This document shows, piece by piece, positions 156 to 20,631 of a stretch of DNA of 64,000 nt. Both the position numbers and the translations under genes were made by a program. Under the pieces are notes generated by a model. It was not told the DNA's origin and did no database searches. It saw nothing but the letters and a program-made list of their open reading frames with translations. The stretch is from Anaerobium acetethylicum. Lineage in GTDB: Bacteria > Bacillota > Clostridia > Lachnospirales > Lachnospiraceae. Each line of letters opens with the position of its first letter. Position 1 is the stretch's first letter. Location: contig NZ_FMKA01000014.1 in the NCBI RefSeq assembly GCF_900096945.1, positions 1 through 64,000 on the forward strand. The letters run 5' to 3'.

Positions 156-368
156 ATGTCATACACAAATTCAAAAAAGGCTGTACTCGCTACTTATGAA
201 ATACTGAAAAAGTATTCCACAGAGGAGCATCCATTGAGTAATTTAAAGATTCAGGAGCATCTTAAGAGTGATTATGAGCTCAAAAAAAAGGTACCTGACA
301 CCATAAACTGGAGTTTATGGTGTCAGGTACCTTTTTTTACTTTTTTATTGTGGACTACCGTTTACTAA
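156..368 (+). pseudogene. Truncated WYL-type transcriptional regulator (N-terminal HTH only), interrupted by palindrome
   Basis: MSYTNSKKAVLATYEILKKYSTEEHPLSNLKIQEHLKSDYEL resembles WYL-regulator N-termini; from about residue 46 the reading frame runs into the palindrome and stops. Confidence 0.6.
290..331. repeat. 42-bp palindrome copy 1 (centre CTGGAG), flanked by A8 and T7, possible bidirectional terminator
   Basis: GGTACCTGACACCATAAACTGGAGTTTATGGTGTCAGGTACC. Confidence 0.95.
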
Positions 369-1353: not shown

Positions 1354-3939
1354 ATGTCAGTGATTACGCAGAATAAGCTCTTCGTGGAAGAAGAGAGATA
1401 TAAAGAAGAAGTATATAGAACCTTTGATGGTATGGCATCTTCAGCTTCATCAGAGGTGAGATTAAAAAAGGCATCCATCACACGTGGAAGTTTTGATGAT
1501 AAAGAAGCTTTTATGATGCAGGGGCAATTATCCGGTGCCGAAAAGAGAAGACGTGAGATAGAGCAACTTGTGGGTAAATTGTATGACAGGCCCTATTTTT
1601 CTCATGTAGAGGTATCGATGGAAGATGATGAGTATGACAGAGAACACTATTTCTTGTCGGACTGCGAGTCATTAAATGAAATGGTACCAGTTGGAAAAGA
1701 TGGGTATGTTTTGCCATTTAAGCAGGATAGGGAAAGGCCAATTTCGGGTGCTTTATTTCATTGCTATCAGTCGAAAAAGGGCAGTTCGATATCCTATAGG
1801 GGACCTCAAGGGGATGAGTTTGTTTTTGTTCCACAGTCGATCTGTGATACGGATATTAAAAAGAGAAAGTTATTAAATGTAATACAGCTATATCCCACAC
1901 CGGATGTATCTCAGAATTCTGCAGATGAGTTACTGGAATCAAAATTAAAGGAAAATCGAGATAACCCAACACTACGAAATATCATTTCAACTTTACAGCA
2001 GATGCAGTTTGAAATTATTAAGACAGATACAAAGACCAACTTTGTTGTCCAGGGATGTGCGGGATCTGGAAAGTCTCAATGTTTGTTGCACAGATTATTC
2101 TTTTTAAGAGATGAATTGTCTCAGGATGGCTGGAATGGAGTTCTGTTACTTACGCCTACAAAGTTGTTTAGGCAATATTCAGCTGAGCTTGTTAGAAGAT
2201 ATCAGTTGTCAGATATAGATGACTGTTCAATAGCGGATTTATATATAACGCTATTAAATGCATATGATGTACGATTTAAGGATCGTCAGTATAAATATCA
2301 GCTCACTGAGGAGTATTTACCGAATGGGTATTTATTTGCTGTCTACGAAGAGGAAAATGTCGTCAAAATTGAGCATGAAATTGATAATGCTCTCAGGAAA
2401 TATGTACAGGCCGGTTGTAAGGCATTAGGCATTGAAGAACCTGCTGAGATTACAGCATTGGTTGTTGAGGATATCGTAAAACAATTAGATGAAGAAATGA
2501 AGGCATTTGATATCCGTGAGGAAGCTCTGCAGCAAAATGATGAATATCAGGAAAAGAGAAAAGAGTATGAGCAGTTGCTTAAGGATGTTGAGACTAATAA
2601 GAAAAAAAAGCAACGTTACACGGATGAAATTGAAAGCATAGCTGCCAGGCGCAGGGAGCTGGATCTGCTCGTTGAAACAGTAAATGAGGTTGAAAAAGAG
2701 AAGGCAGACTGGGTACATCAGCGTGAGAAGAGAGTTAAAGATGCGGTCAAAAAACTTGAAGAAGTCAGCAGAAAATTCGAGCGAGGAACAGATTTACAGG
2801 CGCCTGCGAAGTATGCGCAACAGTTGTTCATTGTAAAAAATCTGACTGAGGGTAGAAAGTTTTTAGAAGATGAGGAATATTTGGTCTTTTTGGATGAATA
2901 TATTAGTCAGGCCAAGGCTGAATTGCAGGAGTTTACAAAAGATAAAAAGGTTAAGAATATTATTGATCGATATGCAAAGCGCGAACAGGAAGTTAACGGA
3001 AATCTTGAATCCATTTCAGGCGAGATAGAGGAGATGCTTACCAGAATTGAAGAATATTCTGAATGGTTACGAGAAGCTGCCAGTAATTTTGAAGGTGAAG
3101 AAGCAAGAATTACTTTATTGCGTTCTGAAATGGAAAGAGCCAGGTATTTCCTGGTTCGTTTAGAGAGTACTGTTTTCGAGCAAGAGGTGTGGAATGCATT
3201 GTCGCCTGTCAAAGAGCAGTACGGGATACAGAAAATACAGGTAGAGGAATTAAAGGACGGTAAACATAAGGAGAGCAGAATCTTATATAAATCAGATTTA
3301 CTGTTTTACATTAGAATATACATGAAGCTGCATCCGGATGCTAACTTACCAGGATATAGCCTTATCTGTATAGATGAAGGACAGGATTTACATAGAGCGG
3401 ATTATGATATTTTACATGGTCTATATCCAAAAGCTGTATTTAATGTGTTTGGCGATGTGAATCAAGTGCTCCATGCCACATGCGGCATTAGAGAATGGGA
3501 GCGACAGACTGGAATATCGACGGTCTATCCGCTTACAACAAACTATAGAAATACGGCTGCTATTGTAGAATTTTGTAACGAGCATTTTGATACTCAGATG
3601 GAATATGTCGGAGGCGTAGATAAAAAACAACGCCCGATTGTTGTCACAGATATAGATAACAGTTGGGATCGTATTGCTTCAGAAGATTTGGTAGTAATTG
3701 TAAAGGATAGGGAATCATACGAAGAATTCTGTAAGGATGCAGGAATAGAGACTGATAGCTTTGTGTATTTGGATACAACTTCTGTAAAAAGCACGGAAAA
3801 GCAAAAAGAGTGTTATTCAATATTTGCGGCAAAAGGACTTGAATTTTCAAACGTTTTTGTCTATGCAAAACATATGACAAAAAATCAGAAGGTGGTTGCG
3901 TGTACCAGAGCGATGGGAGGGCTATATTATTATGAATAG
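1354..3939 (+). CDS. HelD/UvrD-like superfamily 1 helicase/ATPase with central coiled coil
   Basis: Walker A GCAGSGKS (2053-2076), Walker B IDEGQD (about 3370-3387), GDVNQ, NYRN, VACTRAM motifs. Confidence 0.8.
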   Translation: MSVITQNKLFVEEERYKEEVYRTFDGMASSASSEVRLKKASITRGSFDDKEAFMMQGQLSGAEKRRREIEQLVGKLYDRPYFSHVEVSMEDDEYDREHYFLSDCESLNEMVPVGKDGYVLPFKQDRERPISGALFHCYQSKKGSSISYRGPQGDEFVFVPQSICDTDIKKRKLLNVIQLYPTPDVSQNSADELLESKLKENRDNPTLRNIISTLQQMQFEIIKTDTKTNFVVQGCAGSGKSQCLLHRLFFLRDELSQDGWNGVLLLTPTKLFRQYSAELVRRYQLSDIDDCSIADLYITLLNAYDVRFKDRQYKYQLTEEYLPNGYLFAVYEEENVVKIEHEIDNALRKYVQAGCKALGIEEPAEITALVVEDIVKQLDEEMKAFDIREEALQQNDEYQEKRKEYEQLLKDVETNKKKKQRYTDEIESIAARRRELDLLVETVNEVEKEKADWVHQREKRVKDAVKKLEEVSRKFERGTDLQAPAKYAQQLFIVKNLTEGRKFLEDEEYLVFLDEYISQAKAELQEFTKDKKVKNIIDRYAKREQEVNGNLESISGEIEEMLTRIEEYSEWLREAASNFEGEEARITLLRSEMERARYFLVRLESTVFEQEVWNALSPVKEQYGIQKIQVEELKDGKHKESRILYKSDLLFYIRIYMKLHPDANLPGYSLICIDEGQDLHRADYDILHGLYPKAVFNVFGDVNQVLHATCGIREWERQTGISTVYPLTTNYRNTAAIVEFCNEHFDTQMEYVGGVDKKQRPIVVTDIDNSWDRIASEDLVVIVKDRESYEEFCKDAGIETDSFVYLDTTSVKSTEKQKECYSIFAAKGLEFSNVFVYAKHMTKNQKVVACTRAMGGLYYYE

Positions 3940-4804
3940 CAGAGCGGAAAAATTCCATCTTCAAAATAAGGAATTGGTACAAAACCTATACAATGGATTA
4001 TGCAGCTTATTAGACAATTTAGAAATGAATACAATGCCAGGCGAAGAAGAAAAAGGGAGCCTGTCTGGTTTGCTGGATTCCTATGCAGAGTCATTAAAAC
4101 GGCATGAAAAATCGAATATGGCTGTGATAAGGCGGGTAAATGCCCCGGGAGCTGATAGTTTTGATGAAAACAACGTAATAAAAGAACTATCAGGACATAA
4201 CCAAAGCATAGAACTTTTGCTAAGACTTGGTCGTGAAAAGATGGTTGATGTTGCGGATAAACTGTTATTGGAAGAAAATGGAAAATTATTAGTAAAATGC
4301 GGATACTGTGAAGAAATAATAGTTGAGAAAACAGGGCGTCGCTATTATGTGCTGAGTTCAAAAGGTGAGAAATCATTTCGAAATAAGACGATAATCAATC
4401 AATTAAGAAAAGACGTCAATTCTGCCATAGTGCCAACAGAAATTATCTTTGAGACAAGCAAGTGGAGCAACATTTATTCGCAAAGAATAGACATGCTAAG
4501 TTTTTATTACAAGAATTACAGGCAAACATCCGATTACATTGCGTTTACTTTAGATGAGTTGAAAGAAATGGTTTTTGGATGTGAAATAGAAGACGGCCAG
4601 GATGTAAGATATACGTTTGCATGTGTATTTGAGAATGAGAGCAAGGATGAAAACGTGAATCAGTTAAAAAGCCTGGCGGGTTCTGGATTGATTGATCAGA
4701 TACTTCTCTTAACTGAATCTGGCGAGCAACAGATGGACTTGGTTATAAAAGACGGACTGGATCCACAACTAATACCAGAGTTATCTTATTTCGTTATGCA
4801 ATGA
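3932..4804 (+). CDS. Uncharacterised protein, winged-helix-like segment; overlaps upstream stop (ATGAATAG)
   Basis: MNSRAEKFHLQNKELV...; ATG 3932 overlaps the TAG at 3937-3939; TGRRYYVLSSKGEKS resembles a wHTH wing. Confidence 0.6.
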   Translation: MNSRAEKFHLQNKELVQNLYNGLCSLLDNLEMNTMPGEEEKGSLSGLLDSYAESLKRHEKSNMAVIRRVNAPGADSFDENNVIKELSGHNQSIELLLRLGREKMVDVADKLLLEENGKLLVKCGYCEEIIVEKTGRRYYVLSSKGEKSFRNKTIINQLRKDVNSAIVPTEIIFETSKWSNIYSQRIDMLSFYYKNYRQTSDYIAFTLDELKEMVFGCEIEDGQDVRYTFACVFENESKDENVNQLKSLAGSGLIDQILLLTESGEQQMDLVIKDGLDPQLIPELSYFVMQ

Positions 4805-4817
4805 TGGGGAGGGACAT

Positions 4818-7800
4818 ATGAGACAATCAGATGCCAGAGTCGAGGAAGTAAAAAGGCAGGCTTTTCAGACAAAGAATAAACTGCTAAATAAACAAATTTT
4901 GTCAGAGGAAGAATGTAAACAGCTTAAAACTGCCATTTGTAATTTAATAGCAGAAGAAATACATGAAACGCATGAAATGCAGGGGGAGCGGAGGGGAATG
5001 GATATTGATGAATTGCTGGCTGAATTCAATGAATATGCGAATCGCTCGAAGAGTATACTTGAAAGTATGCTTGCCTTGGTTTCTCAAGGACGTATACCAG
5101 GTAATGAGGATAGAAAAGAGTTTGAAACGACAATAGAGGAACTTTGTAAGAAATATGACTCAGTGTGTGCAATGGCCAGAGAAGAATTATTAGAGGATGA
5201 GCTTCCGGAGACGGGAAGTCCTGTTTTGGGGTATTATGAGGCTATTAAGAATAGTAAGTCAGCACTGCTTCGTAATCAAATGAACGAGGTCAAAGTTACG
5301 CTTGAAAGGTTTATATCCGTACAATCACTTTTAGAGCAGTATTCATCTGCTTTGGAACCATTTCAAAAACAGGCTGAGACGCTGCTTGAAAGAATTGTAA
5401 GCAGTGAGGTAACTGATTTTTCTGAGGTGAGTGAGGAGGTTGCGGGTCCTCAGTTATTTCTTCGTGCATTAGATTTCGATGACCTGGATTCAGCTGCAGG
5501 AAATGATTTGCTCGATTCATTAGAAGCGTATTATCCATCCCGTGTAGCAAGAGGCCTTTCAAAAGAGAGCTATTTCCTTCCAGGTTCGGATTCGGATGAA
5601 GTTACTCAAACAGCGGAAAATGCGCAGGAAGTGCCTGGGACTTCAACCTCTGAGGAAGGAACAACAGCCAAAGAGGAAAAGACATCCGAAGAGGAGCAGG
5701 CTGAGGAAATAGCTTCAGATATAGAGACTAAAATAGCAATAGCAGATAATGAAACTACTGAAGATAGGAAAGCTTCTGAAGAGGAGAATGAGGAACACTC
5801 GGAATTTACTAAGTCAATTGCAGCCAGAGGGCTTATTTTAGATGAGAAAAAGGATTTTGGTATTTTATTAAGCGATATAAGCGAAGCGGAAAACAAGAAG
5901 ATTTCAGTGAGTGTTTTCTTGAATGATCTTAGAAAGGGAAATGTAAAGGCATTTAAGAGCATAATCCAGCAATTATCCAGATTCGGCCTGATTTCAAAGA
6001 GCATACTGGGCTTAAGATTTCATATGCAGGAAGGCACTGCGGAAAGCAGTCTGGATTTCCTGCAGAAAAAGGGTTATCTGAGAAAGTATAAGCTAATACC
6101 AGGTGGGGAGTTTTATTGTTCATCTCCCAGACTTGAAAAATCGTTAACTTATAAAGATGCGAGCAAGTTTGTTGAAGTAAGGCAGCTTTCTGTAGATACA
6201 ATGGGTGTATTAATTGAGGATAAAGAATCCAGCGCAACCGCGAGAATGGCATTTCTCAATCTTTACATCAATAGTAATAGAAATTTCATTGAGAGACAGG
6301 TAAAAAAGCAGTCGGCAACGAATATACTTTTTGCAGAGGCATTCTTGTACAGGGCTTATGATACAGACCATCCAGAAGAATCTGAAATTTTAGCAGGTGC
6401 ATTCTGGACAGGCATTGAGGAGTGTGACCGCTTTATTGCTGGTTTGGAGAAGCTAATTGAGGGTGCGGAGTCTGTTAACAGACTCATTATTGCATCGGCG
6501 AATAAAGACTTTGCCAAAAACATTGTCGAGGAGATTCAGCGCTGTAATTTCTCAAAACTGAAGAATGTTCCTATCTACTTGTATACAGTATCAGATGATG
6601 TCTACTACTCTTATTACACTGGAAATGAGGCATCGATTGGGGAGATATGGCATGCATTGGCAGACGCTGATCATGAACATGATGATCCGGTGGAATCTGA
6701 TCCGGAGCCATCGTTTGAAGCAGAGAATGAAGATGACCATGATACTGCTCAAGACACAGATACTGAAGGGCAGGGTAAGCCTGAGCGTAAAGCTGTAGAA
6801 AAAACCAGATCGGTATCCGCTAAGAAAGAGTCAGCACAAACAACTAAAATAGCTGAGGCGTATGACACGGAAAGCATGGAAGTGACGCTATGCAGATTGA
6901 TCAATGAAAAGAAGTATTATTGTGCACCCGCTTATGCAAGAGCACGCTCATTAAAGGATTCTTCGATGATCGAATTGTATGACAGAATCGCTTACGCATT
7001 GAATGATCCAATGAAGCGTTGTACATATTCAGCAGATGGTGTGTTTGATTTGATTCCGCAGAGGCATACAGAATTTTCGGACGCATTAGTCGTAGCAATT
7101 GGACTGAGAACTTTTTTCTCTAATCAGGTGCGATACGATTACAATATTAAGGCATTTTACAATGCAATAAAAGAGTATCCGGTATTAAGCACATACCCGT
7201 CCTTAAGTAATGTTGTATATAAACTTGTAGAGTTTAAGGATGCACAGAAAAAGGGGCTGGATGCTTATGCTGACTATAGGGCAAAGAGCATTTCCCAGTT
7301 AGAGGATGAACTGAAGAAGCTTCAAAGGGAAGCAAAGCTTTTCTTTGAAAGCACGATTGCAGTCAAGAAGGTCGAAAAGGCCAATCTGAGAAGATTCCTT
7401 GAGACCAAAAAGCTGCTTTTTGATGTGAATGGTGATATTGGCCAGTATATAAAGGCAGTAGCAGATAATGAGAAGGAGATTCAGCCTTTAATTGTTGAGT
7501 TTCTGCAAGATAATTTCATCAGAGAAGGAAATATAATATCAGAGGATACAATTGATTCTGATCTGCTTTGGGAGTTTATCTTAAACTATTGGGATCAGGC
7601 TGGAGAAAAGATGATGATGAAACTTCGTGCGGACTTAAAGAGCCATTTGCGAAATAACATCGTTAATATTACAACGAAGGCTGTTCAAATCATGATTCGC
7701 TGGTGTAGCCTTGTTGATAAGATTAATGACCAAACGGAGGATGCTAGTTCATTGGCATATAGGAAAATCCGTAAGCCATTGATTGCTGATATTGCGGAAG

Positions 7801-10439
7801 CACTGGACTATATTGGAAAGGATATAAATGCAGCTGAAGTTTCGGACGAGGAAAAAGCAGGTCTTGAAGTAATCAGATATACACTTGATGAGATTGGACA
7901 TTGCATAGATGGTTCGTATGAAGAATATCAGAAACGCTATTTTTATGTGCCATTCCTATTCACGGATGATGTGCTGCTAGATGAGGCTTTTTGCCCTGAT
8001 TTAGATGTAAGGTCATCTGAAATGGTTGAACTTCAGCCGGAATACCGTATATTAGAGCATGCAGGAAAAGTATGCAAGCGTCCGATGGATAGATGTTCGG
8101 AAATCCTCGAGGACGGTGGAGATGATTATGGTTCAGCACGTCTGCTTGCAGAATATATCGAAGCAACGGATGCGACAGCTGATATTGCATCAATAGAGAG
8201 AACTATAGAGGCAGGTGAAGAGTACGCAAAAGAGACAGCTAATCTTAGAAAGGAACAGTTTATAGGAGACCTGGAGCTCGCACAGAGTTATGGCCAGATC
8301 GACAACTCAAATTCCACGGAAGATAAGAAGGAGAAAATCCTTCAGATTGTCGATGCGTGGTATGAGAGCTCTCTTGAAAGTTCTAACTATGGATTCTTTA
8401 AGCGCATTACGGACAGCTACCTTGCAGAAATACGTAAGGAATCCAAGTCTCGTGAAAAGGACCTGATCGAGCAGCTTGAGGCATTTAAGAATACCAGTAT
8501 AAAGGGGATTTCGGCAGAAGCCAAAGAGAAAAAGGTAGCCAGGATCCAGGCGGCAATAAAACAGCAGAATTATACAGTCTCTGAAGATCTTCTGGCGCGT
8601 GTATGGCAGCAGGATGACGAGCATGAAGAAATCATAGAAGAGGATTTCCTGCGTGAGTTCCTTGAAAATTATACTGATTACTATAAGCCTGTTGCCATGA
8701 GCCAGTCAAGTTTTGCCACACTTGTTAGTAGTCGTACCAGAAATAAGGAAGAGCGTGGTGGAAAGAGGCTTGCTGACAATTGGCTTCCGGGAGGAAGCAA
8801 CCTTGGCAAGGATCGTTTGATTGCACTCCTGTCTGGCTTTGGCTTCAAAGTAAACAACAATTCTGTTCAGGCTCAGAGCTCTATTGGAAAATTCGAGAAT
8901 TTCCTGGTAAGGAATTTGGTGGTACAGGGAGGAAAAAGAGAAAACTATACACATCCAATTGCTGCATTTGGTTCAGGTGCATCCCAGGAAGGATTCAGAG
9001 TAGTATGTATAAATGGCAAATATGACGCCGCGGGTTTGATTGACGTAATGAAGCAAATTGGCAATGCGAAGCATACAATGATTTTATTGGATTGTGCGCT
9101 TGATAAGCCTGAGAGACGAATATTGGCCAGAAAGAGCAAGTCGGAACTCGGGGATAAACTGTTTGCTGTCGTGGATAGAACTGTAATGATGTATATGGTA
9201 AGAAATTACGATGAAACCAAGGCAAACAGAATGCTTATTTCATTGATAACGCCATTTGGCTACTATCAGCCATATGTATGGGAATCATCAAATGTCATGC
9301 CGCCTGAGATATTCATGGGAAGAAAACATGAACTTGAAAGAATCGAGTCAGCGACAGGCGCAAATATTGTATATGGTGGTCGTCAGTTGGGAAAATCTGC
9401 ATTGCTTAAGAAGGCAAAGGCAGATATTGATGGTGATGAAAACGGTGATCGTGCAGTTCTTATAGAAATTAAAGGATTGAACTATCAAGAAGCCGCAAAG
9501 AAGATTGGTCATGCATTGTATGACGAAGGTGTTCTGACATCGGACATTACGACAACGGATTGGGATGAACTTGCCAGAGCAGTGAAGAACCGTCTTCAGT
9601 CTGAGAAAAACAGAATACCTTATTTACTCTTACTGCTGGATGAGGCTGATACCTTTATTGAAAGCTGTGAGGAGATAAATTACAGGCCATTTGACTCCTT
9701 GAAGGAAATTCAGAGTATTGGTGTAGGGCGCTTTAAGTTTGTAATTGCCGGACTTAGAAATATTGTGCGCTTTAAGCATGAAGCTGCTCTGGGCAACAAC
9801 AGTGTGCTGACACATCTTGAGGCGATGACTGTAAAGCCATTCCAGCCGGCTGAAGCACGTGAACTTATGGAGATTCCGCTTCATTATTTAGGACTGAAAT
9901 TTCCCAAAGAAAATGAATCGCTCATTACGCTTATTCTGGCTAGTACAAACTATTTCCCAGGTCTGATTCAGATGTATTGCGCAAAGCTTTTATCGGCAAT
10001 GAGAAGTAAGGACTATGCTGGATATGATGAGGCAGATACTCCAATTTATGAAATAAGTGAGGAACATATAAAGAAGGTGCTTGCGGATCCTGAATTTATG
10101 GATCAGATTCGAGAGAAGTATGTAATCACATTGAAGTTGGATGAAGATAACTATTATTACCTGATTGCACTTATTATGGCATTCCTTTATCACAATAACG
10201 GGTACAATGAGGGTTATTCTGCTGATGACATTAAGAATGCTGGTAATGAACTTGATATTGCAAAGATATCAAACCTGGAGGATACAAAGCTGGCTGCATT
10301 TATGGAAGAGTTAAAGGAACTGAATGTGCTTAGAAGTACAGATGAGACACGCTATTTGTTTACGAGATTTACTTTCTTCCAGATGATGGGAACAAGAACA
10401 GAGATAGACAGCAAGCTTGAAGAGTACATGGAGGACTGA
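4818..10439 (+). CDS. Giant (1873 aa) protein with acidic linkers and a C-terminal AAA/STAND-like ATPase
   Basis: GRKHELERI...GGRQLGKSALLKK (Walker A 9375-9398), LLLLLDEAD Walker B; single long ORF. Confidence 0.8.
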   Translation: MRQSDARVEEVKRQAFQTKNKLLNKQILSEEECKQLKTAICNLIAEEIHETHEMQGERRGMDIDELLAEFNEYANRSKSILESMLALVSQGRIPGNEDRKEFETTIEELCKKYDSVCAMAREELLEDELPETGSPVLGYYEAIKNSKSALLRNQMNEVKVTLERFISVQSLLEQYSSALEPFQKQAETLLERIVSSEVTDFSEVSEEVAGPQLFLRALDFDDLDSAAGNDLLDSLEAYYPSRVARGLSKESYFLPGSDSDEVTQTAENAQEVPGTSTSEEGTTAKEEKTSEEEQAEEIASDIETKIAIADNETTEDRKASEEENEEHSEFTKSIAARGLILDEKKDFGILLSDISEAENKKISVSVFLNDLRKGNVKAFKSIIQQLSRFGLISKSILGLRFHMQEGTAESSLDFLQKKGYLRKYKLIPGGEFYCSSPRLEKSLTYKDASKFVEVRQLSVDTMGVLIEDKESSATARMAFLNLYINSNRNFIERQVKKQSATNILFAEAFLYRAYDTDHPEESEILAGAFWTGIEECDRFIAGLEKLIEGAESVNRLIIASANKDFAKNIVEEIQRCNFSKLKNVPIYLYTVSDDVYYSYYTGNEASIGEIWHALADADHEHDDPVESDPEPSFEAENEDDHDTAQDTDTEGQGKPERKAVEKTRSVSAKKESAQTTKIAEAYDTESMEVTLCRLINEKKYYCAPAYARARSLKDSSMIELYDRIAYALNDPMKRCTYSADGVFDLIPQRHTEFSDALVVAIGLRTFFSNQVRYDYNIKAFYNAIKEYPVLSTYPSLSNVVYKLVEFKDAQKKGLDAYADYRAKSISQLEDELKKLQREAKLFFESTIAVKKVEKANLRRFLETKKLLFDVNGDIGQYIKAVADNEKEIQPLIVEFLQDNFIREGNIISEDTIDSDLLWEFILNYWDQAGEKMMMKLRADLKSHLRNNIVNITTKAVQIMIRWCSLVDKINDQTEDASSLAYRKIRKPLIADIAEALDYIGKDINAAEVSDEEKAGLEVIRYTLDEIGHCIDGSYEEYQKRYFYVPFLFTDDVLLDEAFCPDLDVRSSEMVELQPEYRILEHAGKVCKRPMDRCSEILEDGGDDYGSARLLAEYIEATDATADIASIERTIEAGEEYAKETANLRKEQFIGDLELAQSYGQIDNSNSTEDKKEKILQIVDAWYESSLESSNYGFFKRITDSYLAEIRKESKSREKDLIEQLEAFKNTSIKGISAEAKEKKVARIQAAIKQQNYTVSEDLLARVWQQDDEHEEIIEEDFLREFLENYTDYYKPVAMSQSSFATLVSSRTRNKEERGGKRLADNWLPGGSNLGKDRLIALLSGFGFKVNNNSVQAQSSIGKFENFLVRNLVVQGGKRENYTHPIAAFGSGASQEGFRVVCINGKYDAAGLIDVMKQIGNAKHTMILLDCALDKPERRILARKSKSELGDKLFAVVDRTVMMYMVRNYDETKANRMLISLITPFGYYQPYVWESSNVMPPEIFMGRKHELERIESATGANIVYGGRQLGKSALLKKAKADIDGDENGDRAVLIEIKGLNYQEAAKKIGHALYDEGVLTSDITTTDWDELARAVKNRLQSEKNRIPYLLLLLDEADTFIESCEEINYRPFDSLKEIQSIGVGRFKFVIAGLRNIVRFKHEAALGNNSVLTHLEAMTVKPFQPAEARELMEIPLHYLGLKFPKENESLITLILASTNYFPGLIQMYCAKLLSAMRSKDYAGYDEADTPIYEISEEHIKKVLADPEFMDQIREKYVITLKLDEDNYYYLIALIMAFLYHNNGYNEGYSADDIKNAGNELDIAKISNLEDTKLAAFMEELKELNVLRSTDETRYLFTRFTFFQMMGTRTEIDSKLEEYMED

Positions 10440-10441
10440 AC

Positions 10442-11497
10442 ATGAAGAACATCTGGTGGAATCAGGTTACAAATGCAGTCCAATATGTATCGCAGATTAC
10501 GCAAAGTATACTTGATGAGAAGAGCATTCTCATCAGGTATACAAGCTGTATGCCCTGGTACGCAGAACTAGAGTCATCAATAATTGAAGCAGTAAAACAG
10601 CAGAGTTCAGAAAAGAAATTTGTAAAGACTCCTGCGGCAACTGATCCGGGTGCCTATTTGTTAAGAGAATTCTGTAAGCCGGAAAAGAGAGCAACGTACA
10701 GACCAACAAAAGGGTATCCTAAATTTTTTGCGGAAAGTGACGATATCGTTCTTCATGATCGCTATCTGTGGGTACAGATTGATGATGTAAATTGTTTAGA
10801 GAACTGGCTTGCTTTTGTTTCTGAATATGTAAAGGAAAGGGGAAAGAATAAAAATACTGCTGTCTTTATCCTGGAGTGGGCAGGCGATGAACAGGCCAGT
10901 GTGAAGAAGGGGATAAAAATATTTTCGCTTGATGACTTCATTGGAGACTATGACAGAATTGTTTTTGCGGTTTTGGCATCTTCAAGCATTAGAGAAAGCG
11001 CGTTTATCAAGAAGTATATAGCTGAACTAGTGGCTAATGTGGCTGGTAATGATATTGAATTATGTGCGGAATGCATTCAAAATCATAAGCCTTTTCTTGA
11101 GAACCCACTGGCATTCATTAGGATGACTGTTGAAGAGAAAGAGCGCAGCGACGGGACCTGTTTTCGCTATACGAAAACCAGTGAAGAGGTCGAACATTTT
11201 ATATGGCTGGCACAGATAAAAACGATTTATCCCCATTTAGAGGAGTACAGAGAAGAATTTGTTCAAAAGCATTCGAGGGCAATATCAAAGCAACTGCCAA
11301 TTTCAGCATCATATGGTGAGATTTATAATGATCCAAAAGATGTTGAACTTGGAACATTAAAATATATGGCAGATAATGGATGCTTAACTTTGAGTACCTC
11401 TGAATACGAGAATTTGAAAAAATACAAAGATGCCAGAAATAAGTTGTCACATTTGGCGGCTCTATCAATTAATGAAATAAAGGATATGCTGAAATAG
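10442..11497 (+). CDS. Predicted HEPN-domain protein, candidate RNase effector
   Basis: C-terminal KYKDARNKLSHLAALSINEIKDML contains an Rx4H HEPN-type motif (R332-H337, nt 11435-11452); starts 2 nt after the upstream stop codon. Confidence 0.55.
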   Translation: MKNIWWNQVTNAVQYVSQITQSILDEKSILIRYTSCMPWYAELESSIIEAVKQQSSEKKFVKTPAATDPGAYLLREFCKPEKRATYRPTKGYPKFFAESDDIVLHDRYLWVQIDDVNCLENWLAFVSEYVKERGKNKNTAVFILEWAGDEQASVKKGIKIFSLDDFIGDYDRIVFAVLASSSIRESAFIKKYIAELVANVAGNDIELCAECIQNHKPFLENPLAFIRMTVEEKERSDGTCFRYTKTSEEVEHFIWLAQIKTIYPHLEEYREEFVQKHSRAISKQLPISASYGEIYNDPKDVELGTLKYMADNGCLTLSTSEYENLKKYKDARNKLSHLAALSINEIKDMLK

Positions 11498-11531
11498 CAG
11501 TAAAGGGCGTGTATACTAATGTCCACATAAA

Positions 11532-11573
11532 GGTACCTGACACCATAAACTGCAGTTTATGGTGTCAGGTACC
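11532..11573. repeat. 42-bp palindrome copy 2 (perfect)
   Basis: GGTACCTGACACCATAAACTGCAGTTTATGGTGTCAGGTACC. Confidence 0.97.
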
Positions 11574-11602
11574 ATTATAAAAACGATATTTTCCAGGGGT
11601 GA

Positions 11603-13876
11603 ATGATGAACGCTAATGAAATACTGAAAGTATATTTTGGATATGATTCCTTCAGAGAAGGACAAGAAAGTATAATAAGCACCATAATGGCAGGACGAGA
11701 TGCTCTGGCAATAATGCCAACAGGAGCAGGTAAATCTATCTGTTATCAGGTACCGGCATTACTGTTTCCCGGTATTACTGTCGTTATTTCTCCATTGATT
11801 TCCCTGATGCAGGATCAGGTTAAGGCATTGAATGAAGCTGGGATTCATGCAGCATTTATTAACTCGTCGCTCTCAGACTATCAGATTAGCAAGGCTTTAA
11901 GTGCAGCTGCTCAAGGGACTTATAAGATTGTTTATGTCGCACCAGAGCGTCTTGAGAGTTGGGAATTTGTTGATTTTGCCAATAATGCAGATATCTCAAT
12001 GGTAACTGTTGATGAGGCTCATTGTATTTCACAGTGGGGGCAGGACTTTAGACCAAGTTATTTAAAGATAGTTGATTTCGTTAACAGACTTAAGAAGAGA
12101 CCTGTTTTAAGCGCATTTACCGCTACAGCAACTGAAGAAGTAAAGAATGACATTGCATGTATTTTGAACCTCAGAAATCCGAATATTGTTGTAACAGGAT
12201 TTGATAGAGAAAACTTATATTATCGTGTCGAAAGTATTAAAAAGAAGGATGATTTTGTTGTGGGATATATTGATGAGCATCCTGATGAAAGTGGCATAAT
12301 ATATTGTGCCACTCGTAAAAATGTCGATGCACTTCACGAATTGCTGTTTAAAAGAGGTGTCCCTGTAACAAAATATCATGCTGGAATTGATAATGATACC
12401 AGAAAGAAAAATCAAGATGATTTTATTTATGACCGTGCCCCGGTAATTGTGGCAACCAATGCATTCGGAATGGGTATTGATAAGTCGAATGTCCGCTATG
12501 TAATTCATTACAATATGCCACAGAGCATGGAAAGTTATTATCAGGAAGCCGGTCGTGCGGGACGTGATGGTGAGCCATCTCAGTGTGTTCTTCTTTTCTC
12601 AGCCCAGGATATTATGATTAACAAATTCCTGTTAGAACGAAAAGATTTTTCGGAGGTAGCGCTCGAGGATATTGAACTGATTCAACAGCGAGATGCAAGA
12701 AGGCTTCAGGTAATGGAAGGCTATTGCCGAACCACAAGCTGTCTTCGCAATTATATTTTGGATTACTTTGGTGAAAAGCCAGGAGCGCCATGTGACAATT
12801 GCGGTAATTGCCATAGGGAATACCGGGAAGCGGATATGACCAGGGAAGCAAAGTGGGTTATTAACTGTCTTGCTGAAACAAAAGGAAGATATGGGCTCAA
12901 TATTGTTCTTGGAACATTGCTTGGCGCAAATAGGGCACGTCTTAAAGAACTGGGCACAGTGAATTATAAATCATACGGTATTTTGAAGGATAATACTGAG
13001 TCTGAGCTTAGACTTCTGATAAGCCAGATGATTCTTGATGGATATGTTTATCAGACTGAGGATCAATATAGTGTTTTTAGGATGGGAGATATTGCACCAT
13101 TGCGAGATGAGAATAATCGTGTGATGATTCGTATGTATGAGGAGAAAGAGCCTGATAGAAGAGTAAAGTCTGGGAAGAAGAAAAGTATGGATTTTCTTAC
13201 AAGTGCAGGATATGTATTGTTTGAAAAACTGCGCAATCTTCGTCTGGAGATAGCAAGAGAAGAATCCATACCGCCATATATCATTTTTAGTGATAAGTCA
13301 TTGGTTGATATGTGTGTCAGAGTGCCGCAGAATAGATCTGAAATGCTTCAGGTGTCTGGAGTTGGTGAAGCAAAGTTTGACAAGTACGGACAGAGATTTC
13401 TTGATGCAATTAGGGACTATCAGGAGGCGCATCCGGATTCTGTAATCAGCATGAAGGAAGATGACGAGGAGCCATTTACCAATGAAAAACCAGAAAAATC
13501 AAAAAAGAAGAGTAAAAAAAGTGAATTCTTTCTTGCTGAGACTGATATCGATAAATTCAACTATTCAGATTTGTATTATATCAGCGACATCAAAGATGAA
13601 ATGAACCGTATCTGTACAGTGGATAATGTGAAGAAGCTTACTGGAACAAAGATATGGGAATATCTTGTATCAGAAGGCTTGACAGAAGAAGCAGATCAGG
13701 GTGGCATATTTATCAAGAAGCAGACTGAAAGAGGGTTAGCGATGGGAATAAAGACGATTGAGAAGGTTAGCCAGGCAGGTAATCCGTATATGCTTTTAAT
13801 GTATCCGGAAAATGTTCAAAAAATGATCCTGGAATATTTTGTTGGGCCAAGACCGGAGACGGAGGAACAGCAGTGA
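11603..13876 (+). CDS. recQ: ATP-dependent DNA helicase RecQ (DEAH, Zn-binding, HRDC-like)
   Basis: FREGQ Q-motif, MPTGAGKS, VDEAHCISQWGQDFRPSY, QEAGRAGRDG, CDNCGNC. Confidence 0.95.
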   Translation: MMNANEILKVYFGYDSFREGQESIISTIMAGRDALAIMPTGAGKSICYQVPALLFPGITVVISPLISLMQDQVKALNEAGIHAAFINSSLSDYQISKALSAAAQGTYKIVYVAPERLESWEFVDFANNADISMVTVDEAHCISQWGQDFRPSYLKIVDFVNRLKKRPVLSAFTATATEEVKNDIACILNLRNPNIVVTGFDRENLYYRVESIKKKDDFVVGYIDEHPDESGIIYCATRKNVDALHELLFKRGVPVTKYHAGIDNDTRKKNQDDFIYDRAPVIVATNAFGMGIDKSNVRYVIHYNMPQSMESYYQEAGRAGRDGEPSQCVLLFSAQDIMINKFLLERKDFSEVALEDIELIQQRDARRLQVMEGYCRTTSCLRNYILDYFGEKPGAPCDNCGNCHREYREADMTREAKWVINCLAETKGRYGLNIVLGTLLGANRARLKELGTVNYKSYGILKDNTESELRLLISQMILDGYVYQTEDQYSVFRMGDIAPLRDENNRVMIRMYEEKEPDRRVKSGKKKSMDFLTSAGYVLFEKLRNLRLEIAREESIPPYIIFSDKSLVDMCVRVPQNRSEMLQVSGVGEAKFDKYGQRFLDAIRDYQEAHPDSVISMKEDDEEPFTNEKPEKSKKKSKKSEFFLAETDIDKFNYSDLYYISDIKDEMNRICTVDNVKKLTGTKIWEYLVSEGLTEEADQGGIFIKKQTERGLAMGIKTIEKVSQAGNPYMLLMYPENVQKMILEYFVGPRPETEEQQ

Positions 13877-13881
13877 AAAAA

Positions 13882-13923
13882 GGTACCTGACACCATAAAC
13901 TGCAGTTTATGGTGTCAGGTACC
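13882..13923. repeat. 42-bp palindrome copy 3 (perfect)
   Basis: Same 42 nt as copy 2; starts 5 nt after the recQ stop codon. Confidence 0.97.
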
Positions 13924-20589: not shown

Positions 20590-20631
20590 GGTACCTGACA
20601 CCATAAACTGCAGTTTATGGTGTCAGGTACC
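20590..20631. repeat. 42-bp palindrome copy 4 (perfect)
   Basis: Same 42 nt as copies 2 and 3. Confidence 0.97.

Follow-up and report, generated by a model that had tools for sequence, protein, structure and literature searches.

The window analysed here is the first 64,000 nucleotides of contig C10 (NZ_FMKA01000014.1) of the 4.6-Mb draft genome of Anaerobium acetethylicum. An ORF check of the window showed that all five ORFs described in an earlier, sequence-only reading of this DNA are present at the coordinates first given, intact and on the plus strand (Table 1). Four of them, designated o1 to o4, form a unit that spans positions 1354 to 11497, and its tight packing was likewise borne out: the stop of o1 and the start of o2 overlap by 8 nt (ATGAATAG, 3932-3939), o2 and o3 are separated by 13 nt, and o3 and o4 by 2 nt. 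This packing is conserved and not a product of chance, because both the gene order and the 8-nt o1/o2 overlap recur in Butyrivibrio proteoclasticus P6B7. The GC content of o1-o4 (0.37-0.41, versus 0.44 in the later part of the window) fits an acquired cassette, which we count as weak evidence. The region from 1 to 1353, at the contig start, looks like decayed genes; it holds no ORF of more than 70 aa, and its one 70-aa frame runs through a palindrome.

Table 1. Genes, motifs and repeats at the o1-o4 locus (positions in the window)
Feature	Position	Strand	Description
o1	1354-3939	+	HelD-like SF1 ATPase, 861 aa, helicase motifs intact, coiled-coil insert
o2	3932-4804	+	290-aa adaptor-like protein
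o3	4818-10439	+	giant ATPase, 1873 aa
o3 aa about 390-640	5985-6737	+	o2-like module (hhalign)
o3 Walker A, GGRQLGKS (K1526)	9375-9398	+	invariant alignment columns
o4	10442-11497	+	351 aa, P-loop-less AAA+ (inactive-STAND-like) domain and C-terminal HEPN-like domain
o4 HEPN-type motif, RNKLSH (R332, N333, H337; residues 332-337)	11435-11452	+	all three residues invariant across 67 homologues
Palindrome, 42 bp	11532-11573		o4-recQ boundary; very stable hairpin, -35 kcal/mol; outside the system
recQ	11603-13876	+	757 aa, housekeeping-type RecQ, judged outside the system

The fifth gene, recQ, had been counted as part of the set, and the palindromes had been taken as marks of an island. Neither assignment survived. 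The recQ product scores 716 bits against NCBIfam TIGR01389 (cut-off 640) and is thus an ordinary RecQ of the housekeeping type; recQ is absent from all other o3-o4 loci examined, including the Butyrivibrio set, and a RecQ of 67% identity in the relative G008 stands in a different context. It was therefore rejected as a member of the system. The 105 nt between o4 and recQ include a perfect 42-bp palindrome of the form GGTACCTGACACCATAAACT-N2-AGTTTATGGTGTCAGGTACC, further copies of which lie at window positions 290-331, 13882-13923 and 20590-20631. Its half-site occurs genome-wide 93 times in forward and 87 times in reverse orientation (backward control, 0); the palindromes cluster on few contigs and are often terminator-like. 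The sequence is a genome-wide REP-like repeat that is dispersed over the genome and does not mark this locus. Elsewhere, the same genome contains another RecQ-like frame, interrupted by two in-frame stops (G000:C22:36773-38617), and RecQ fragments (G000:C53:87-367).

The o3 protein is laid out as an N-terminal module, acidic linkers, a long helical region, an alpha/beta domain and a C-terminal ORC/Cdc6-like AAA+ domain, which ends in a helical and winged-helix-like part. A Foldseek search with an AF2 model of aa 674-1873 (pLDDT 85.5) returned ORC1, Cdc6 and archaeal Orc2, and each of the 11 o3-family members scanned has matches to Pfam AAA_22 and ATPase_2. Both the Walker A motif and the Walker B motif (DEAD, D1608/E1609) are invariant across the family alignments and lie within the C-terminal 576 residues. 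By its modelled fold, o3 is an ORC/Cdc6-like (STAND-type) AAA+ ATPase.

The full o4 chain (AF2 model, pLDDT 96.2, pTM 0.88) retrieved Apaf-1, ORC subunits and RFC/clamp loaders in Foldseek, i.e. AAA+ folds and no HEPN, and a PDB sequence search with o4 returned nothing. Of the 67 o4 homologues, 66 lack Walker A. The last ~105 residues are all-helical in this high-confidence model and contain an R-N-x3-H motif, which conforms to the R-x4-6-H motif of the HEPN superfamily; E267 and R270 are as invariant in the 67 sequences as the motif itself, and the motif is retained in the partners from Agrobacterium, Salinibacter, Streptomyces and viral contigs. Single members of the o4 family match Pfam HEPN_RiboL-PSP (E 0.0021) and HepT-like (E 0.0099), both weakly, five match HEPN_Swt1 (E 0.062) and some also match DUF4145; the window o4 itself has no Pfam HEPN match, and no single HEPN model is strong in any member. 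Taking the weak Pfam matches and the invariant motif together, we consider it likely that the C-terminal domain is HEPN-like and a putative RNase, and the earlier description of o4 as a HEPN-motif protein holds in this form.

When the o3 ATPase alignment was scanned against 84,980 species genomes, at least 485 relatives were found. Among the best 80 of these, a full-length o4 homologue lies directly behind o3 in 70 loci, with a median o3/o4 gap of -4 nt and 96% of the gaps within 60 nt. Several of the remaining 10 loci stop at a contig edge, and about six have no BLAST match for o4. For o3, a BLAST search with composition-based statistics had missed some homologues. Within the family, o4 is carried by 5 of 200 genomes (own included) and is adjoined by an o3 homologue in all five, and in the other four of these neither o1, o2 nor recQ stands alongside the pair. 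At class level, o3-o4 was found in 4 of 391 genomes, again including its own. The conserved core of the operon is thus the two-gene pair o3-o4, to which o1-o2 is a rare local addition. Co-occurrence across genomes, which could be expected of the genes of one system, is strong for o3-o4 but weak for all four genes (two genomes).

The distribution of the pair is patchy (about 1-2% of the sampled genomes), and for this reason we see no sign of a housekeeping role. It recurs in Spirochaetota, Rhodothermota, Pseudomonadota, Actinomycetota and viral contigs, among other places on the Agrobacterium Ti plasmid, on plasmids of Salinibacter, Azospirillum and Streptomyces, and on two viral contigs. In each of these six cases, the o4 profile recovered the partner (E values from 5e-7 to 3e-23; unrelated, non-homologous controls, E of at least 0.2). 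The matches across phyla arise mainly through the HEPN-like part, which is the best conserved segment of o4 at this distance. In the o4 tree, a Spirochaetales sequence nests with Lachnospiraceae (support 99/99), which is consistent with horizontal transfer. No o3 was found in sequenced phages. The o4-like partners of Agrobacterium (L007:13215-14804) and Azospirillum (L010:14223-16130) have an extra C-terminal AAA_33 (polynucleotide-kinase-like) domain.

The four genes together were found at one other locus, in Butyrivibrio proteoclasticus P6B7 (L021), in the same order and with identities to the window of 59% (o1), 35% (o2), 60% (o3) and 68% (o4). At the other 79 of the best 80 loci (from at least 485 o3 relatives), o1-o2 are absent. 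There was no other o1-type protein in 200 genomes, all further matches being below 100 bits, no other convincing o2 in 392 genomes, and no o2 on the viral contigs; o1-o2 without o3-o4 was not seen in the sampled relatives. The SF1 motifs of o1 (GCAGSGKS, DEGQD, GDVNQ, NYRNT and KGLEF, at residues 234, 674, 700, 730 and 827) are intact, and so are those of the Butyrivibrio protein, which has GDVDQ in place of GDVNQ. The best PDB match of o1 is B. subtilis HelD (6wvk, E 6e-14). Its score against NCBIfam HelD_BACSU (66.1 bits) is below the cut-off of this equivalog (419), and PADLOC GajB matches the helicase core only (E 6.5e-10). The identification of o1 as a HelD-like SF1 ATPase was therefore confirmed, though below the HelD cut-offs.

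For o2, no family was found in PADLOC, Pfam or NCBIfam. When aligned by hhalign with o3 aa 390-640, it gives a collinear match with a score of 31.0, while 100 column-permuted controls reach at most 18.2 and other o3 slices and reversed o2 score 11-17. The kinship is suggestive only, because full-length o2 against full-length o3 gives nothing and the relation appears only slice against slice, with controls. Given a modest E-value (5e-4, for one comparison) and an o2 profile of only two sequences, we regard it as probable that o2 represents the wHTH-like plus alpha/beta module of o3 as a free-standing copy.

In Butyrivibrio, a type III RM pair and then a complete DISARM cluster (DrmMII 570, DrmD 1473, DrmA 1078, DrmB 276 and DrmC 310 bits) stand ahead of the unit, which begins 33 nt after DrmC. 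Vsr, a McrB-like AAA protein and a DUF2357/PD-(D/E)XK protein come next on its 3' side. RM, DISARM, the four-gene unit, Vsr and the DUF2357 nuclease pair form one run on one strand (L021, L103). BrxD/SngB-like ATPases lie near the pair in one of two other Lachnospiraceae-type genomes, in E. ramulus the pair is located behind an apparent Cas9-Cas1-Cas2 CRISPR locus, as read from gene sizes and order, and on the Agrobacterium Ti plasmid ThiF and patatin genes come after it. A general enrichment of o3-o4 in defence islands is unsupported by the immediate neighbours, however: among the 111 proteins scanned, these are mostly housekeeping and rarely defence genes, which makes a solitary cassette the usual state of the pair.

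Comparison with the family libraries (PADLOC 2023, Pfam and NCBIfam) named only o1 and recQ; the window o2, o3 and o4 had nothing above cut-off. The operon had been put forward as a candidate undescribed defence system, and this proposal is supported, as PADLOC names nothing in o2-o4 and the four genes recur within the DISARM/RM/nuclease island of Butyrivibrio. The absence of a confident match to a named system stands at the level of sequence, but an architecture predicted in 2021 matches closely. The part of the work of Kaur et al. (eLife 2021, Fig. 6C; PMC8195603) that deals with nSTAND2 predicts a counter-invader system in the form of a mobile two-gene operon, in which both proteins are of the STAND/ORC type and have an arginine finger; one NTPase is active, and the partner with eroded NTP motifs is fused to an effector, often HEPN, or else GT4. 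Likewise, o3 and o4 are adjacent and both of the STAND/ORC type by AF2 and Foldseek, and an ATPase with invariant Walker A and B motifs is combined with a partner that has lost Walker A in nearly all homologues and carries RNx3H. On the other hand, the Pfam family PF20702 has no match in the own genome (E up to 1), none at E < 0.5 in 11 o3-family ATPase segments and none in 399 genomes of the phylum Bacillota, where the controls likewise had no match. In addition, the passages on nSTAND2 in that paper describe neither a partner of 1.9 kaa nor an addition like o1-o2. Since the architecture fits closely but the Pfam model fails, we liken o3-o4 to nSTAND2 without counting it among the members of that system.

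In BREX, BrxC and BrxB/BrxF similarly combine a large ORC/Cdc6-type ATPase with a P-loop-less inactive STAND partner (PMC12839542), which is also the composition of o3-o4. However, PADLOC and Pfam detect no PglZ, methylase or BrxL at o1-o4, and thus not the combination of BrxC and PglZ. The ATPase is C-terminal in o3 and N-terminal in BrxC, HEPN resides on the o4 partner, and the sole BrxC match is sub-threshold, helical and at E 0.09. HelD is an SF1 ATPase that recycles RNA polymerase; the alignment of o1 with HelD takes in the N-terminal part and the two motor halves, but o1 has a longer central coiled coil and an operon context. With Gabija, the locus shares an SF1 motor within a defence operon, but the window o2-o4 contain no match to GajA (OLD/TOPRIM), and o1 matches HelD better than GajB. 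As in Avs and other STAND NTPase sensors, a STAND-type switch would drive an effector, but no Avs model matches, and here the effector resides in o4, a second protein that has an inactive AAA+ domain of its own. Membership of o1-o4 in Gabija, BREX, Shango or DISARM was rejected, as the diagnostic partners are absent in the PADLOC and Pfam scans; DISARM is a neighbour in Butyrivibrio and lies outside the four-gene unit.

With moderate confidence, we interpret o3-o4 as a two-component STAND-type immune switch in which o3 senses and o4 is predicted to cut RNA. The pair is probably a conserved, unnamed immune-type module and a so far undescribed anti-virus alarm, most likely an abortive-infection switch. 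The computational support consists of the conservation of gene order, the folds, the motif conservation, the patchy spread across phyla and one complete defence-island context. In such a switch, the variable N-terminal and helical parts of o3 would detect a signal derived from the invader, and nucleotide exchange in o3 would lead to assembly with o4, whose P-loop-less AAA+ domain may dock into the o3 ring by analogy with ORC-like active/inactive pairing. The assembly would then dimerise and activate the HEPN domain of o4, which, judging from its motif, would cut RNA and halt the growth of the infected cell. The same active/inactive-pair logic is proposed in the section on the nSTAND2 operon of PMC8195603 and, for the inactive STAND proteins of BREX, in PMC12839542. 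Here, as in Butyrivibrio, the o1 motor and the o2 adaptor may form an extra front end; in what is the weakest step of the model, they would probably feed a second signal, such as the state of a nucleic acid or of a transcription complex, into o3.

If this interpretation is true, PADLOC 2023 misses a defence system in hundreds of gut and environmental species, and since o3-o4 often lies outside defence islands, the pair cannot be found by guilt-by-association. It would also be a testable bacterial case of an ORC-like active/inactive ATPase ring that gates an RNase, with apoptosome-like logic, and whether a HelD-like motor can serve in immune sensing could be tested directly on the four-gene form. 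To a more far-reaching version we assign a low probability: here, o3-o4 would be a widespread unnamed immune family (hundreds of species in at least five phyla) with a dead AAA+ subunit carrying the RNase, and the four-gene form would link the pair through o2 to the HelD-like motor, so that the transcription-complex state on invading DNA triggers immunity.

HEPN proteins are also known from toxin-antitoxin systems, where they are functional components. Together with the solitary position of most o3-o4 loci between housekeeping genes and the presence of some pairs on plasmids, this would agree with a role outside antiviral defence, in which o3 restrains o4 and the two act as an RNA-cleaving switch of a stress or plasmid type, either toxin-antitoxin-like or in RNA processing. 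We regard this as unlikely, while giving it some weight, since o3, a giant STAND-type ATPase, is modular, varies in its N-terminal half and has a length that is disproportionate for an antitoxin, and since some loci are found in defence-island contexts.

Two further alternatives concern parts of the immune switch. The rarity of o1-o2, which are missing at nearly all o3 loci and in the sampled relatives, would be explained if they were an independent helicase module that merely lies beside o3-o4, the four genes not being one system. However, the order, the 8-nt overlap and the tight o2/o3 spacing are kept at 35-68% identity in two genera, o2 resembles an o3 module, and in the sampled genomes no o1-o2 was seen apart from the pair; we therefore give this a low probability as well. 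A lower one still applies to the idea that o4, through its HEPN-like domain, reads RNA or other nucleic acid without cleaving it and that killing occurs through another step (the o1 motor or o3). Inactive-STAND parts are proposed as nucleic-acid sensors in the part of PMC8195603 on such proteins, and the kinase-like AAA_33 of the Agrobacterium and Azospirillum partners could act instead, but the motif residues R, N and H never vary among 67 homologues, and the HEPN part is the best conserved across phyla, both of which argue against a mere reader.

Some relatives of the pair were noted in other surroundings. An IMG/VR contig (L131:4788-11320) carries it as proteins of 1845 aa and 332 aa, the latter with RNALAH, close to genes resembling phage tail genes. 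In Brasilonema (L008:7516-18111), a relative of the giant ATPase is followed by a PLD-like and helicase protein, and in Burkholderia (L012:7906-17243) by a 922-aa protein that differs from o4, which suggests that the partners of the giant ATPase are exchangeable.
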